Shown: positions 35,931 through 40,421 of the stretch, piece after piece | How the letters are laid out: each line of letters begins with the position of its first letter | Numbering within the stretch: the stretch's first letter is position 1 | Origin: Lobulomyces angularis | Taxonomy: Eukaryota > Chytridiomycota > Chytridiomycetes > Lobulomycetales > Lobulomycetaceae | Direction: 5' to 3' | Length of the DNA stretch: 64,000 nucleotides | Assembly: GCA_027604685.1 (NCBI GenBank) | Contig: JADHYX010000085.1 | Location: 1-64,000 of the forward strand | Notes under the pieces: model-generated | The model's input: only the letters and a program-made list of their open reading frames with translations | What the model was told of the DNA's origin: nothing | Database searches by the model: none | Made by a program: the position numbers and the translations under genes

Positions 35931-37969
35931 ATGAAAAAAATTAAAAATCAAAAGTCTGAATTTTTAACACGGGTAACAATTAAAAAAAAAAAAAATATAT
36001 ATACATAAAAAATTAATAATTTTCAAGGTTTCATCAAAAATAAAAGCTGTTTCTAACGATGGAGAATTAATTGAGATACAGACAAAACAAATAAAAAAAT
36101 TCAATCCTTACGTCGAAACAAGTGAAAAAAAAGAAGCAGTTTTCCAAAAAAAAAAAAGTACTGATGAAAAGAAATTAGATTTTGATACCAAGATTTTTAA
36201 AGATCTACAAGCACCTACTTTTGAAGTGGAATTTATGAAAAGTTTAAACAAAGTTGATGAACTGGATTTAAAAACTTTAAAGTTTTTTACTGATATTTTA
36301 TTAAAACATTGTACACAAATTAAATTTGACCAAAAAGAAACAGTTATTTTGACTGAGAAAATATTGTTATCAAAAAAAAAAGAAATTGTTGAAAAGAAAA
36401 CAAACTTGCTTGGTGATGAAGACTTTGATGCGGGCATCGTCTCTTTGGATCCAGTTGATTATTTACTTCCAGATGTTGCATTGAATGTAAAAAAAATTAA
36501 AAAACAAGATACACTAGACAACATTCATCCAACAGAAATCGACTTTCATCATAACGCAATCCTAAACCAGGAGAGTGATTTACTTTTATCACCCAACGTA
36601 CAAACCATTGTGTCGAACCTAAAAGTCAAAAATGAAGATTCATCATCATCACAACAAAAAAAATTACACACACCTGCACCTTGGACATCATCAAACAACT
36701 TTGATTTTATTGAAAATCAACCAATTTTAAAAAATAATATTAACTTCAAAAACCAACCTACAAAATTACCAATTTACACCCCGCAGAGTAAACATGCCAG
36801 ACAATCTTTGGATCTTGATGTCGAAGAAGAAAAGAGAGACTCTATTACTGTAAAAAATCTTAAAGTAAAGGAAAAATCAATTTTGTTGGACAACTTTAAA
36901 ACCAGCTGCCAAACAGAAAATATTACCAAAAAAACAAAAAATACTTCATCAACAGATACCTCTTCACCAACACTTTGTTCAGCAAAAAAAAAAAATACAC
37001 AAGAAAAAAAAACAATATCCGAAAACTTGTCAACAAAAGTAAATCCAGAAAAAAGAAACCCAGTTTGTTTCAGTAACGAAAAGTCACAAGATCCTTTTCC
37101 TCGAAACTTTTCTAGAAACAGCTGTATCTCAACATCCACCACCAAGCAAAGTTTTTGCAATCGTTTAACGTATCTGATACCTACTGCTAATACCAATAAT
37201 TTTGAGTATGGCAGTCTAGGTCCTGATTTGGAAAATTTGGAGTATAAAAAAAAGGTTCCCAATTTTTTTTTTTTTACAATTATTTTATTTTTATTTTTTT
37301 CATCTTAACAGTTGGAAATGTTAACCAAAAGAAGAGAATATTCAAAACTAATAAATTGTAAACCAATACCAAAAACAAGTAAAAAAAAAAATAAATATAA
37401 TTTTTTTTTTTATTTTCCTATTTTTTTTTTTTAGTGTCAAGTGTAAACTTTTATCAAACTGACATAACAAATAAAAGTAACATAGTCTACGAAGAAAATT
37501 CGGAAAACACCAGTGGTAAAAAAAAAAAAAAAAAACACCTTGATTTATCAACAGTTGAGATGCAAGGTTTTAAAGAAAAAGTAAAGGTTCTAAAAGTAGG
37601 AACAATCCTTGACGTTGTTGATGCTTTTGAAAGAAGAAAGAGGGTTATTTTTAACTTCCTTTTTTTTTTTTTCCTTCTTATCTTTTCTTTTTTTTTTTTA
37701 GATGAAAGATTTTTCTTTAACCATAAAAAAAAAACCAAAATGTAAAGATAAACTATTACCACCCTTATTTGTTAAACAAAATTGTGAAGATAAATTTTTT
37801 AATAATCATGATTCTCTAATTGATTTAAAGTATGATTATTTAAAAAAAAAAAAAATTTAATTGTTTTAACAATTATTTTTTTTTTTTTTCTAGACTTGAT
37901 AAGATGAAGTTGGAACATTTAAAAGATATTGAAATGATTGAAAAAATTAAAAAACAATTTAAAATATAA
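35931..37969 (+). CDS. Lys-rich protein, possible JHY-like ciliary protein
   Basis: About six exons, about 600 residues. The start at 35931 (MKKIKNQKSEFLTR) joins in frame through a GTAACA...TTTCAAG intron to VSSKIKAVSNDGELIEIQ. Most of the chain is low-complexity Lys/Asn/Ser sequence without domains. The one conserved-looking block is NFEYGSLGPDLENLEYKKK followed, across an intron, by LEMLTKRREYSKLINCKPIP. A 'LGPD-x-E...K..K...KEYAK.I' block also occurs in JHY (C11orf63), a protein tied to motile cilia in vertebrates. The resemblance is from memory and short. The last exon ends MKLEHLKDIEMIEKIKKQFKI. The gene model itself is sound because several splices keep the frame. The function is unproven. 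Confidence 0.6.
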
Positions 37970-38263
37970 AAACTTTACAAAAAAAATAAAAAAATAAATA
38001 AAATTTTGTATCTCAATGATAATGAAAATTGGTTTTTTTTTAAAAAAAAAAAAATTAAATTTTCATAATAATTTATTATTTTTATTCTTTTTTTAAAAAA
38101 AAAAAATTAAATTTTGATAATAATTTATTATTTTTATTCTTTTTTTAATATAAAAAAAAATTTACAAAAAAACCAAAAAAAAAAAAAAAAGAAAATATAA
38201 TGTAATGTGTAAAAAAAAAAAAATAAAAAATATTGAACAAAAACTTATTTAACAAAAAATGGA
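37970..38263. other. convergent spacer with a 52-base tandem duplication
   Basis: Between the 3' ends of two converging genes. It is almost entirely A/T and includes the tandem repeat at 38042-38148. No coding signal. Confidence 0.6.
38042..38148. repeat. tandem repeat, two copies, period about 52 bases
   Basis: Two copies of a unit containing ATTAAATTTT(C/G)ATAATAA, then TTTATTATTTTTATTC, then a poly-T/poly-A junction. They differ by one base (TTTCATA versus TTTGATA), so the duplication is recent or maintained. Confidence 0.8.
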
Positions 38264-39311
38264 TCATAAACCCGGAAAACAGTTGGAAAACATTTCTTCA
38301 AATAATCCGACTGATGGTATTTCTTTAGATATTTCTTCACATTGTTGTGTCCTAGTAAACTCATTTTCAACTAAAAAAAATAATTATAAAAAAAATTGAA
38401 TAAAAATTAAGTTACCTTCAAAGTCACAGTGGTTATCAATTTCCTCGGTTTTCTCGTCAAATTCAAAATTAAAAAGGTCATCAAACAAATTGGTATACAA
38501 CTTTTCATGATCTTTGAAAACTGGAGTTCCCCAAGAGCCTTTGTCAGCGACGTTATTATCAAGGAGACAATAAGGAGGTTGATTAGGACATATTGGTGCT
38601 TGAATAGACAAGTCAACGATGTCAGCTGCAGAACCACTGAAGGGTTGCCGATATCGTTGAACTCCGTTACTAAGTTTTCAAAATTCTTTCCAGGTTGTAT
38701 TGGTTGGTTTGAAGAAAAAAATTCTGATTCTAAATTTAAGTCGAGCAAGGAAGCAGCCTGCGAAACAGGAGATGAATTTACTGAACTTGCAGTTGTTGAT
38801 GAACTTTCAGGAATCACATCACAATCTTTTGGTAAATTTTTTGCATTATGTAACAAAAGATTTGTAGTAGTCAAAATAGATTCTAAAGAGGGTTTATTAG
38901 ATTCAACATTTTTTGAGGTAGCCAAGGTAAAAAGATTTTTTAGAGAGTTGAATTGAGTAGAAAGGATTTCCAATTTGCTATTTAAATTTTGGTTGTCAGC
39001 CTCATATACTTTTAACTTTTTTTTTAATATCTCAGTTTCCTCTGTTAAACTAGCATGACTAATTTCCAGTTCTTCAGTTCGTTTTCTCTTTCTTTCTCTA
39101 GAAGCAACTGCTGAATGTCGATTTCTCATTATCCTCTCTAATTTTTTTGCAGCTCTTTCCTCTGCGGTTAAATCTAGATATCATGATTTAAAAAAAAAAT
39201 AAATATATATATTTAAAAAAAAATTGGAATTTATTATATATTTTTTTTACTTTTTCCTCTTCTTTGTTTTTTTATTTCTACTGGTTTTTCATTTTTTAAA
39301 ATAGAATCCAT
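38264..39311 (-). CDS. HAC1: HAC1/XBP1-type bZIP factor with a frame switch (candidate Ire1 intron)
   Basis: Exon 1 (39311 to ~39251, MDSILKNEKPVEIKKQRRGK) joins through a GT...AG intron to NLTAEERAAKKLERIMRNRHSAVASRERKRKRTEELE. This is a HAC1/HacA/XBP1-like basic region, with a leucine zipper after it (ISHASLTEETEILKKKLKVYEADNQ). The frame then runs through VNSSPVSQAASLLDLNLESEFF to NDIGNPSVVLQ. There the frame splits. Continuing gives hydrophobic segments (QYVLINLLIVSLIITSL, IPICLMTFLILNL) and a stop at about 38407. The other frame reads SIQAPICPNQPPYCLLDNN and LYTNLFDDLFNFEFDEK, then splices normally to VENEFTRTQQCEEIS and ends MFSNCFPGL at 38264. CUGCAGC at 38625-38631 matches the Ire1 loop consensus (CNG|CNGC). 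Ire1-spliced HAC1/XBP1 drives the unfolded protein response. The family call is from the basic region. The unconventional intron is inferred, and its exact ends are not fixed. Confidence 0.85.
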
Positions 39312-40421
39312 AATTTTTTTAATATTTAAAGAAGAGGAAAAAAGAAAATGCTGAATTTTTTTTTATTAATTTTTTAAAAAAAAAAAAAAAGTTGTAACAA
39401 ACTTTTTTTTTTTTTAATTTTCCATTTTCTTCAGTTTGACGCCACTGTATTACAAGCGGGGAAATCCTGTGTTACACAATCAATTCATTAGACATTAAAA
39501 TTGCTTGAAATTTTAGTAGAAGCTTTGGGGGTAACAATGCACCAATGGCATTAGGACAACCTGTTTAAGAGCGGAGGAAGTGAACCAGGATGCAGAGAGG
39601 TTCTTGGTAATTGAGTAGGAGTAGTAAGTGGACCGTGGTTCTAAAAAAAGATTTGAAGTTACAATAAAAACTTATTGTTTAATTCTTTCAAATCTACTTG
39701 GCCAACTATTAAAATTCAAAACACCAATAAAGCTAAGTCACTGCTGACAACAACTCCTGTACTATTATGCCCAATGTAAACTTCTGCTTCAAATCGAGCG
39801 AGAAACTGCCCAATTTACCAAGTGACTGGAAGGAAAAGTTTCAACAAATTTTTTAATTTTTTCAACTTTTTTATACTTTGAAAGCGCCTTTTCCAATTTC
39901 TGAATTGAAAAACGGTAAATTTTTTTTCTTAGATTATCCTACTTTTTTTTTTTTTAAAAAGCTTCTTTATTTCTTAAGCAATTTGTTTTTTTTTTTTTTT
40001 GGTCTTACGAAATAGGTTTCTTTTTTTTTGAAAACTTAATTTGTCACATACAAGAAAAACTTACTTGACATTATTTTCTATTAAAAAGTGCAAATCACTT
40101 AAGATCTTTACTAATGTTAATATTGGTTAATGTTTGACTTTAAGTAAAAGTTAAATTTTAATAGAATTTGCTGCAAGTTGTGCAAAGTAAATAATTTTGT
40201 TTAGTTCTTTCTATTTTTTTTCCATTAAAATATAAAGCTTTTACCATGGTAGCTCATTTTTGTTTCATTTTATCGTATTTTAGTTGTCACTGTCTCATAT
40301 TTTCTGTCATGTCTATCGAAAATATTTGTTTTTTTAGTAAAAAGTTGTGATATAAATTCTAATTTCAGGAGTTTCATCTAATAATTTAATAAATAAATAA
40401 CCAACTACAAGAGATTTGGTT
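39312..40421. other. 1.1 kb spacer with a less-AT island
   Basis: 5' flank of the HAC1-like gene. Positions about 39430-39650 are much less A/T-rich than the surroundings and have no long frame. They contain a small hairpin (GAACC...GGTTC near 39573-39594). It could be a promoter element or an unannotated RNA, and I see no match to U-snRNA, RNase P/MRP or tRNA motifs. Confidence 0.5.

Follow-up and report, generated by a model that had tools for sequence, protein, structure and literature searches.

Background

Excision of an intron by Ire1 from the mRNA of HAC1 or XBP1 is the model of mRNA splicing without the spliceosome, and it has been described with two stem-loops and, for the yeast enzyme, a strict 7-nt loop. 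The recognition rules given for Saccharomyces cerevisiae Ire1 are CNG/CNGN or CNG/ANGN (the slash marks the cut) within such a loop, and those for Schizosaccharomyces pombe Ire1 are UG/C in loops of varied size (PMC6037481, PMC8104961). The consensus has also been written as CNGNNGN, in a study whose account of double and single stem-loop substrates reports no preference of Ire1 between them (PMC3149027). The intron measures 20 nt in hacA of filamentous fungi and 19 nt in HAC1 of Candida albicans (PMC3154848), the latter being the shortest length met in the literature cited here. Metazoan XBP1 has a 26-nt Ire1 intron; overlapping frames are ascribed to all its homologues (PMC7580959), and CUG/CAGC is present at its 3' site (PMC6037481). 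As for the unfolded protein response (UPR) of the chytrid phylum, Ire1 and Hac1 are named in anaerobic fungi, with no intron described in the portion of that source covered here (PMC10512342). The gene described below is not reported among the papers listed in searches on HAC1/XBP1 introns in chytrids and early fungi, searches outside which the main survey of such introns lies.

Gene structure and reading frames

The window is a stretch of 64,000 nucleotides from Lobulomyces angularis (contig JADHYX010000085.1, positions 1 to 64,000). A first, sequence-only reading of it had claimed an HAC1/XBP1-like gene with two overlapping C-terminal frames around a CUGCAGC motif. This bZIP gene occupies 39311-38264 of the minus strand, and its reading frame changes near 38630, beside CUGCAGC (38631-38625). 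The claim is borne out by the frames themselves, by the same frame change in a paralogue and by a switch of constraint within exon 2. The gene is laid out as follows.

39251-39311, minus strand: exon 1, with the ATG at 39311-39309; codes for MDSILKNEKPVEIKKQRRGK and part of the following codon; deposited protein P0001 starts likewise
39174-39250, minus strand: ordinary spliceosomal intron of 77 nt, GTAAAA...TCTAG, 9% GC; junction same as in P0001
38416-39173, minus strand: exon 2, running from the frame-1 bZIP through the structured site into frame 2; assigned from Pfam and codon-position differences from the paralogue
38371-38415, minus strand: ordinary spliceosomal intron of 45 nt, GTAACT...TTTAG, 9% GC; junction same as in P0001
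38264-38370, minus strand: exon 3, frame 2, terminating in GLFEEMFSNCFPGL and the stop at 38266-38264; the paralogue terminates in NPFEDIFASCFSKI

Frame 1 carries the bZIP and continues past 38630 as far as the genomic stop at 38409-38407. Frame 2 opens at 38677 and, after the 45-nt intron at 38415-38371, stops at 38266-38264; its passage through a normal intron to a stop at 38264, which had been proposed earlier, is thus seen. The offset between the frames is 2 mod 3, and removal of 2 mod 3 bases would join the frame-2 C-terminal domain.

The conceptual spliced protein matches Pfam bZIP_1 (E 2.9e-9) and bZIP_2 (E 6.5e-7), both above the cut-off. By blastp in a set of 120 proteins, matches to XBP1 had E values of 3e-6 and 4e-5 and 34-36% identity in the bZIP. 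The search of solved structures gave weak matches to MafG and C/EBP (E 0.4-0.9) and one to an unnamed protein (2e-4).

A paralogue with the same frame change

A second copy, 72% identical over an 87-residue bZIP query and 77% identical in nucleotides around the site, lies on a different contig of this assembly (G000:C276). It has the same frame change, the block GGCAACCCTTCAG[T/C]GGTTCTGCAGC[T/C]GA and equivalent ordinary introns. The only relatives obtained by protein search were two deposited proteins of Clydaea vesicula (Chytridiomycota, Lobulomycetales), HK099_004025 (P0001) and HK099_007874 (P0002), found as 2 of 1349 candidates at E 0.001 and 2 of 60 at E 10. P0001 is 97% identical to the conceptual spliced protein of this gene, and the few differences lie away from the site. 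The P0002 model continues from inside the last, HAC1-like exon into a reading frame further downstream (G000:C276, 2340-3200) and by eye looks like a fused gene model. A pattern-based search for further relatives returned 338 matches in viral contigs and 76 in genome contigs, of which none was confirmed.

Comparison of the two copies indicates where selection acts. Upstream of the site, differences at codon positions 1, 2 and 3 of frame 1 number 49, 36 and 80. Over the rest of exon 2 they number 12, 15 and 30 when read in frame 2, against 21, 24 and 17 in frame 1, so that third positions of frame 2 hold 30 of the 57 differences. The three downstream changes nearest to the site (38636, 38624 and 38621) leave the residue unchanged in frame 2 but not in frame 1; the four that follow alter residues even in frame 2 (I/N, V/I, S/F, I/N). 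In exon 3 overall conservation is poor, with 9 of 35 residues identical, and codon positions give frame 2 no advantage there: the counts are 19/14/17, against 14/8/17 and 13 of 32 identical residues in frame 1, the exon-3 alignments being short and gapped in both frames. As judged from these substitutions, constraint acts on the bZIP in frame 1 and on the exon-2 tail in frame 2; therefore something must join the frames.

We also considered whether the frame-1 tail is itself under selection as an XBP1u-like sequence. An open frame 1 beyond the site is no more than mildly unusual, with P values of 0.08 here and 0.12 in the paralogue from 20,000 synonymous reshufflings of frame 2 for each copy. 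Both copies have a frame-1 hydrophobic stretch recalling the HR2 hydrophobic region described in XBP1u (PMC4138184, PMC9217131), with P values of 0.19 and 0.46 against synonymous reshuffling. As neither openness nor hydrophobicity is clearly above expectation, and the frame-1 tail has no third-position excess between the copies in exon 2, we do not argue for such selection.

A single predicted hairpin at the frame change

The region had been suggested for folding as twin stem-loops. Instead, the predicted RNA of both copies is a single hairpin, not a pair with 7-nt consensus loops. Both copies fold alike, into a 14-pair stem formed between exon and exon, a 5-nt bulge on the 3' side, a 4-bp helix and a 7-nt loop. 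The predicted elements and the best candidate intron are as follows.

38647-38660, minus strand: 5' arm of the 14-pair stem, in the fold common to both copies
38643-38646, minus strand: tip helix of 4 bp, AACC with GGUU (38635-38632), invariant between copies
38636-38642, minus strand: hairpin loop of 7 nt, CUUCAGU (CUUCAGC in the paralogue), with the putative 5' cut CAG/U between 38637 and 38636
38627-38631, minus strand: 3' bulge of 5 nt, CUGCA with the putative cut CUG/CA, the first five bases of CUGCAGC; identical in the paralogue
38613-38626, minus strand: 3' arm of the 14-pair stem, pairing with 38660-38647
38599-38612, minus strand: small neighbouring hairpin, CUUG with CAAG around a 6-nt loop; its four pairs are invariant and hence give no covariation evidence
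38629-38636, minus strand: best candidate unconventional intron, 8 nt (UGGUUCUG); the 11-nt variant with consensus sites spans 38636-38626

Among all 54-nt windows of each modelled mRNA, taken as far as 300 nt beyond the site, the one with the hairpin has the lowest energy (rank 1 of 852 here and 1 of 843 in the paralogue). The consensus energy of the two sequences is -18.85, against -6.8 +/- 2.4 for column shuffles, of which 1 in 200 matched it. Folded singly, the sequences give z-scores of -3.1 and -4.2 over 54 nt and of -1.9 and -3.7 over 74 nt. The copies differ at 9 of the 28 stem bases, and 13 of the 14 pairs form here and all 14 in the paralogue; compensatory changes of both partners occur in two pairs (C-G to U-A and A-U to U-A), and in three further pairs one partner is altered. 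When the same substitutions were placed at random, all 14 pairs were kept in 1.3% of cases and at least 13 in 6.5%. Under synonymous reshuffling the observed stem pairing was reached in 8% of cases here and 0.4% in the paralogue. A pair-counting covariation score was equalled by 230 of 500 shuffles, in a test that with two sequences can hardly decide.

The pattern of the tip, allowing up to two mismatches, matched twice in the assembly, at these two genes only (the reversed-pattern control matched once), and gave no match in the viral contigs. The motif CTGCAGCNG by itself occurs 440 times in the 20.8-Mb assembly. Scanning 37900-39500 with Rfam cmscan at E up to 5 gave no match at the site and five matches elsewhere, all at 39374-39495 and below the gathering scores. 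Just downstream, at 38596-38531, a second hairpin is predicted with similar pairing in both copies and without a consensus cut site in its loop; over a 70-column window it was reached by 3% of column shuffles.

What stands above chance in the two sequences is the repetition of the arrangement in a second gene, that is, the frame-2 third-position excess, the same three candidate sites and the common hairpin.

Candidate cleavage sites

Within 150 nt of the site, CNG/NNG occurs only as CAG/YGGU, CUG/CAGC and CAG/CYGA, a set of three that both copies share (the full modelled mRNAs contain 12 occurrences here and 8 in the paralogue). The cuts would fall in the loop, in the bulge and at the first pairs of the stem, respectively. 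CUGCAGC had been regarded as the only perfect Ire1 site; in this gene, however, CAG/CUGA (38628-38622) matches CNG/CNGN, and CAG/UGGU (38639-38633) matches CNG/NNG. At the latter site the +1 base is U here and C in the paralogue, and the +2 and +3 bases are paired. The only pairs of CNG/NNG sites within 150 nt that join the frames excise 8 nt (38636-38629) or 11 nt (38636-38626), in both copies, and each copy thus has a pair of candidate cut sites that carry C at -3, G at -1 and G at +3. An 8-base intron after CAG/UGG at 38637 had been set aside by the sequence-only reading; together with the 11-nt variant, it turns out to be the only such pairing. Both lengths are well under the 19 nt of C. 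albicans.

Neither candidate cut falls at position 3 of a consensus loop of 7 nt, a placement that S. cerevisiae Ire1 strictly requires (PMC6037481, PMC8104961). We also tried CUGCAGC as a closed 7-nt loop, and it cannot close in either copy, the flanking bases being U and U here and U and C in the paralogue; therefore the geometry is not that of a canonical Ire1 site.

Ire1 and RNA ligases in the genome

An Ire1 gene is present on contig C454, with a hydrophobic stretch recognized by eye and with kinase and KEN RNase domains. Its RNase motif YDGNSLRDLLRALRNKKHH holds the catalytic residues Y, R, N and H, spaced as Y1043, R1056, N1057 and H1061 of yeast Ire1, in the numbering of PMC3149027. 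A fungal Trl1 with ligase, kinase and phosphodiesterase domains is encoded on G000:C529. A gene of the RtcB family is encoded as well (G000:C449), which makes two possible ligases for Ire1 splicing.

Alternative explanations

Four readings without Ire1 were weighed. That the frame change is a sequencing error, an indel in the assembly, is so very unlikely as to be close to excluded, because the paralogue, on a different contig, has the identical frame change, the same block and equivalent ordinary introns; the deposited proteins, which differ from the assembly in a few residues, bridge the frame change too. A programmed -1 ribosomal frameshift, with the hairpin as stimulator and no splicing, is also a highly improbable way of connecting the frames. 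Frame 2 does correspond to a -1 shift and a stable hairpin is predicted, but no in-frame X XXY YYZ heptamer lies near the hairpin; from -120 to +220 there is one here, 109 nt before the cut, and none in the paralogue. Ordinary spliceosomal splicing deserves more attention, since a GT-AG intron of 26 nt (38662-38637) would join the frames in this gene. The sequence-only reading had found no joining GT...AG pair; this one does join them, ending at an acceptor-like TTCAG (38637) that both copies share (one of three common acceptor positions), and P0001 reads as joined there, P0002 being likewise read as GT-AG-joined. The donors differ, however, with GTTCAA here and TTTCAG at the equivalent place in the paralogue, and the join in P0002 is placed elsewhere, with a length of 59 nt. 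Over the region scanned, GT-AG excisions that join the frames number 17 here and 21 in the paralogue; a single one, of 11 nt, sits in the same relative position in the two copies. All four introns that are certain in these genes begin with GTA, measure 45-77 nt and have 9-14% GC, whereas the 26-nt candidate has 50% GC and starts with GTT, and it includes the 5' arm of the common stem; among the joins listed, none of those shorter than 120 nt (5 of 17 here, 11 of 21 in the paralogue) starts with GTA. We consider this reading improbable. The GT-AG joins of the deposited models look like bridges made by gene prediction, and the proposed Ire1 reading suggests that the models of both copies hide an intron beneath them. 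Less probable still is that the tRNA-splicing endonuclease makes the cuts in place of Ire1. The outer stem, 3' bulge, 4-bp exon-intron helix and loop resemble an intron-bearing anticodon arm, and Trl1 is encoded; against this, the gene is HAC1/XBP1-like, both cuts would fall in CNG/NNG, Ire1 is encoded and there is no tRNA body.

It is a different matter whether Ire1 removes another intron, either 11 nt cut at CUU/CAGU in the loop (38639-38629), 20 nt at 38628-38609, or 20 or 26 nt upstream of CUG/CAGC. Each option keeps the frame, and known introns include 20 and 26 nt (PMC3154848, PMC8674358). CUU/CAGU would be cut at position 3 of the predicted 7-nt loop, but CUU lacks the G before the cut, and the cuts for 20 or 26 nt upstream lack consensus bases and lie within the paired 5' arm. 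The 20-nt intron at 38628-38609 was the one put forward at the outset, with the remark that its second cut, near 38609, is off consensus. That remark is correct: in both copies the 3' cut reads UUG/UYUA, without C at -3 and G at +3, that is, without two of the three invariant bases. The intron itself does not fare well, as the 3' arm of the stem (38626-38613) would be removed with it. Taken together, these other introns are unlikely, with a chance that is nevertheless appreciable. An Ire1-type HAC1/XBP1 switch, summed over the 8-nt or 11-nt intron and these others, is the best explanation of the locus and in our view quite a likely one. The single-hairpin form with 8 or 11 nt is its more likely version, based on two DNA sequences and putative cuts. 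The claim of an Ire1-type frame-shifting intron at CUGCAGC is therefore upheld in part: the paralogue, the constraint switch, Ire1, Trl1 and the RNA structure agree with it, while the 20-nt intron proposed with it and the twin hairpins to be looked for find no support.

Comparison with known systems

Like metazoan XBP1, the gene combines a bZIP, a short putative frame-shifting intron and overlapping frames, and the exon-exon pairing recalls the XBP1 RNA zipper (PMC6037481). It differs in having one hairpin instead of two, a candidate intron of 8-11 nt, a frame-1 hydrophobic tail not above expectation and a weak C-terminal likeness to XBP1s. By eye, the frame-2 C terminus (38264-38310), FEEMFSNCFPGL, and that of the paralogue, FEDIFASCFSKI, are like the end of XBP1s, WEDTFANELFPQL, a likeness that is statistically weak. 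Shuffle P values against XBP1s were 0.055 and 0.34, with a human tail as reference; end-anchored, they were 0.029 and 0.034, with 8 of the 120 database proteins. We regard this candidate likeness as suggestive by eye and statistically unconvincing. The candidate 3' cut, CUG/CAGC, has the sequence of the XBP1 3' site, and the codon phase is that of human XBP1.

With hacA and C. albicans HAC1 the gene shares a fungal bZIP, an encoded Trl1 and a short intron removed on ER stress, the intron and the stress step being proposed for this gene; unlike them, it has no second stem-loop with a consensus loop, holds CUG/CA in a bulge and has a smaller candidate intron. The decay sites of S. pombe Ire1 are similar in that CUG/CA includes UG/C and lies outside a 7-nt loop; unlike decay sites, two sites with an exon-holding stem suggest splicing. 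In the anticodon arm of intron-bearing pre-tRNAs, a stem is followed by a cut site in a 3' bulge, a short exon-intron helix and a cut site in the loop. The hairpin here has the same succession of parts, but it lies in an mRNA, has no tRNA body and carries Ire1-type bases at the cuts.

Proposed mechanism and implications

On balance, the gene appears to be one of two HAC1/XBP1-type genes of this chytrid from whose mRNA Ire1 would excise 8 or 11 nt out of a single hairpin, a reading drawn from sequence comparison and modelled folds. The unspliced mRNA would be translated through the bZIP into the frame-1 tail. Upon ER stress, Ire1 would make one cut in the 7-nt loop, behind CAG (38637), and another in the 3' bulge, behind CUG (38629), each following a G, and 8 nt would be freed, or 11 nt if the second cut follows the next CAG (38626). 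Exon AACC would pair with intron GGUU, and the 14-pair stem, with exon on both sides, would keep the ends together while Trl1 ligates them. After ligation the ribosome would translate frame 2, an acidic C-terminal domain. The analysis shows both frames, the second gene, the constrained frame in exon 2, a predicted hairpin for each copy, where the sites lie, and that Ire1 and Trl1 are encoded. We infer Ire1 as the cutter, the exact cuts, the dependence on stress and the activity of the frame-2 domain.

An 8-nt or 11-nt intron released from one bulge-helix-loop hairpin, with exons zipped together before cutting, would mean that the two-hairpin rule is not universal and that a UPR splice site has converged on the geometry of tRNA splicing; we put this forward tentatively, as a possibility. 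If true, a single hairpin and so small an intron in an early-branching fungus would mean that the Ire1 substrate can be simpler. This would also bear on the evolution of XBP1/HAC1 introns, and the hairpin would be a minimal substrate on which the coupling of cutting and ligation could be tested.
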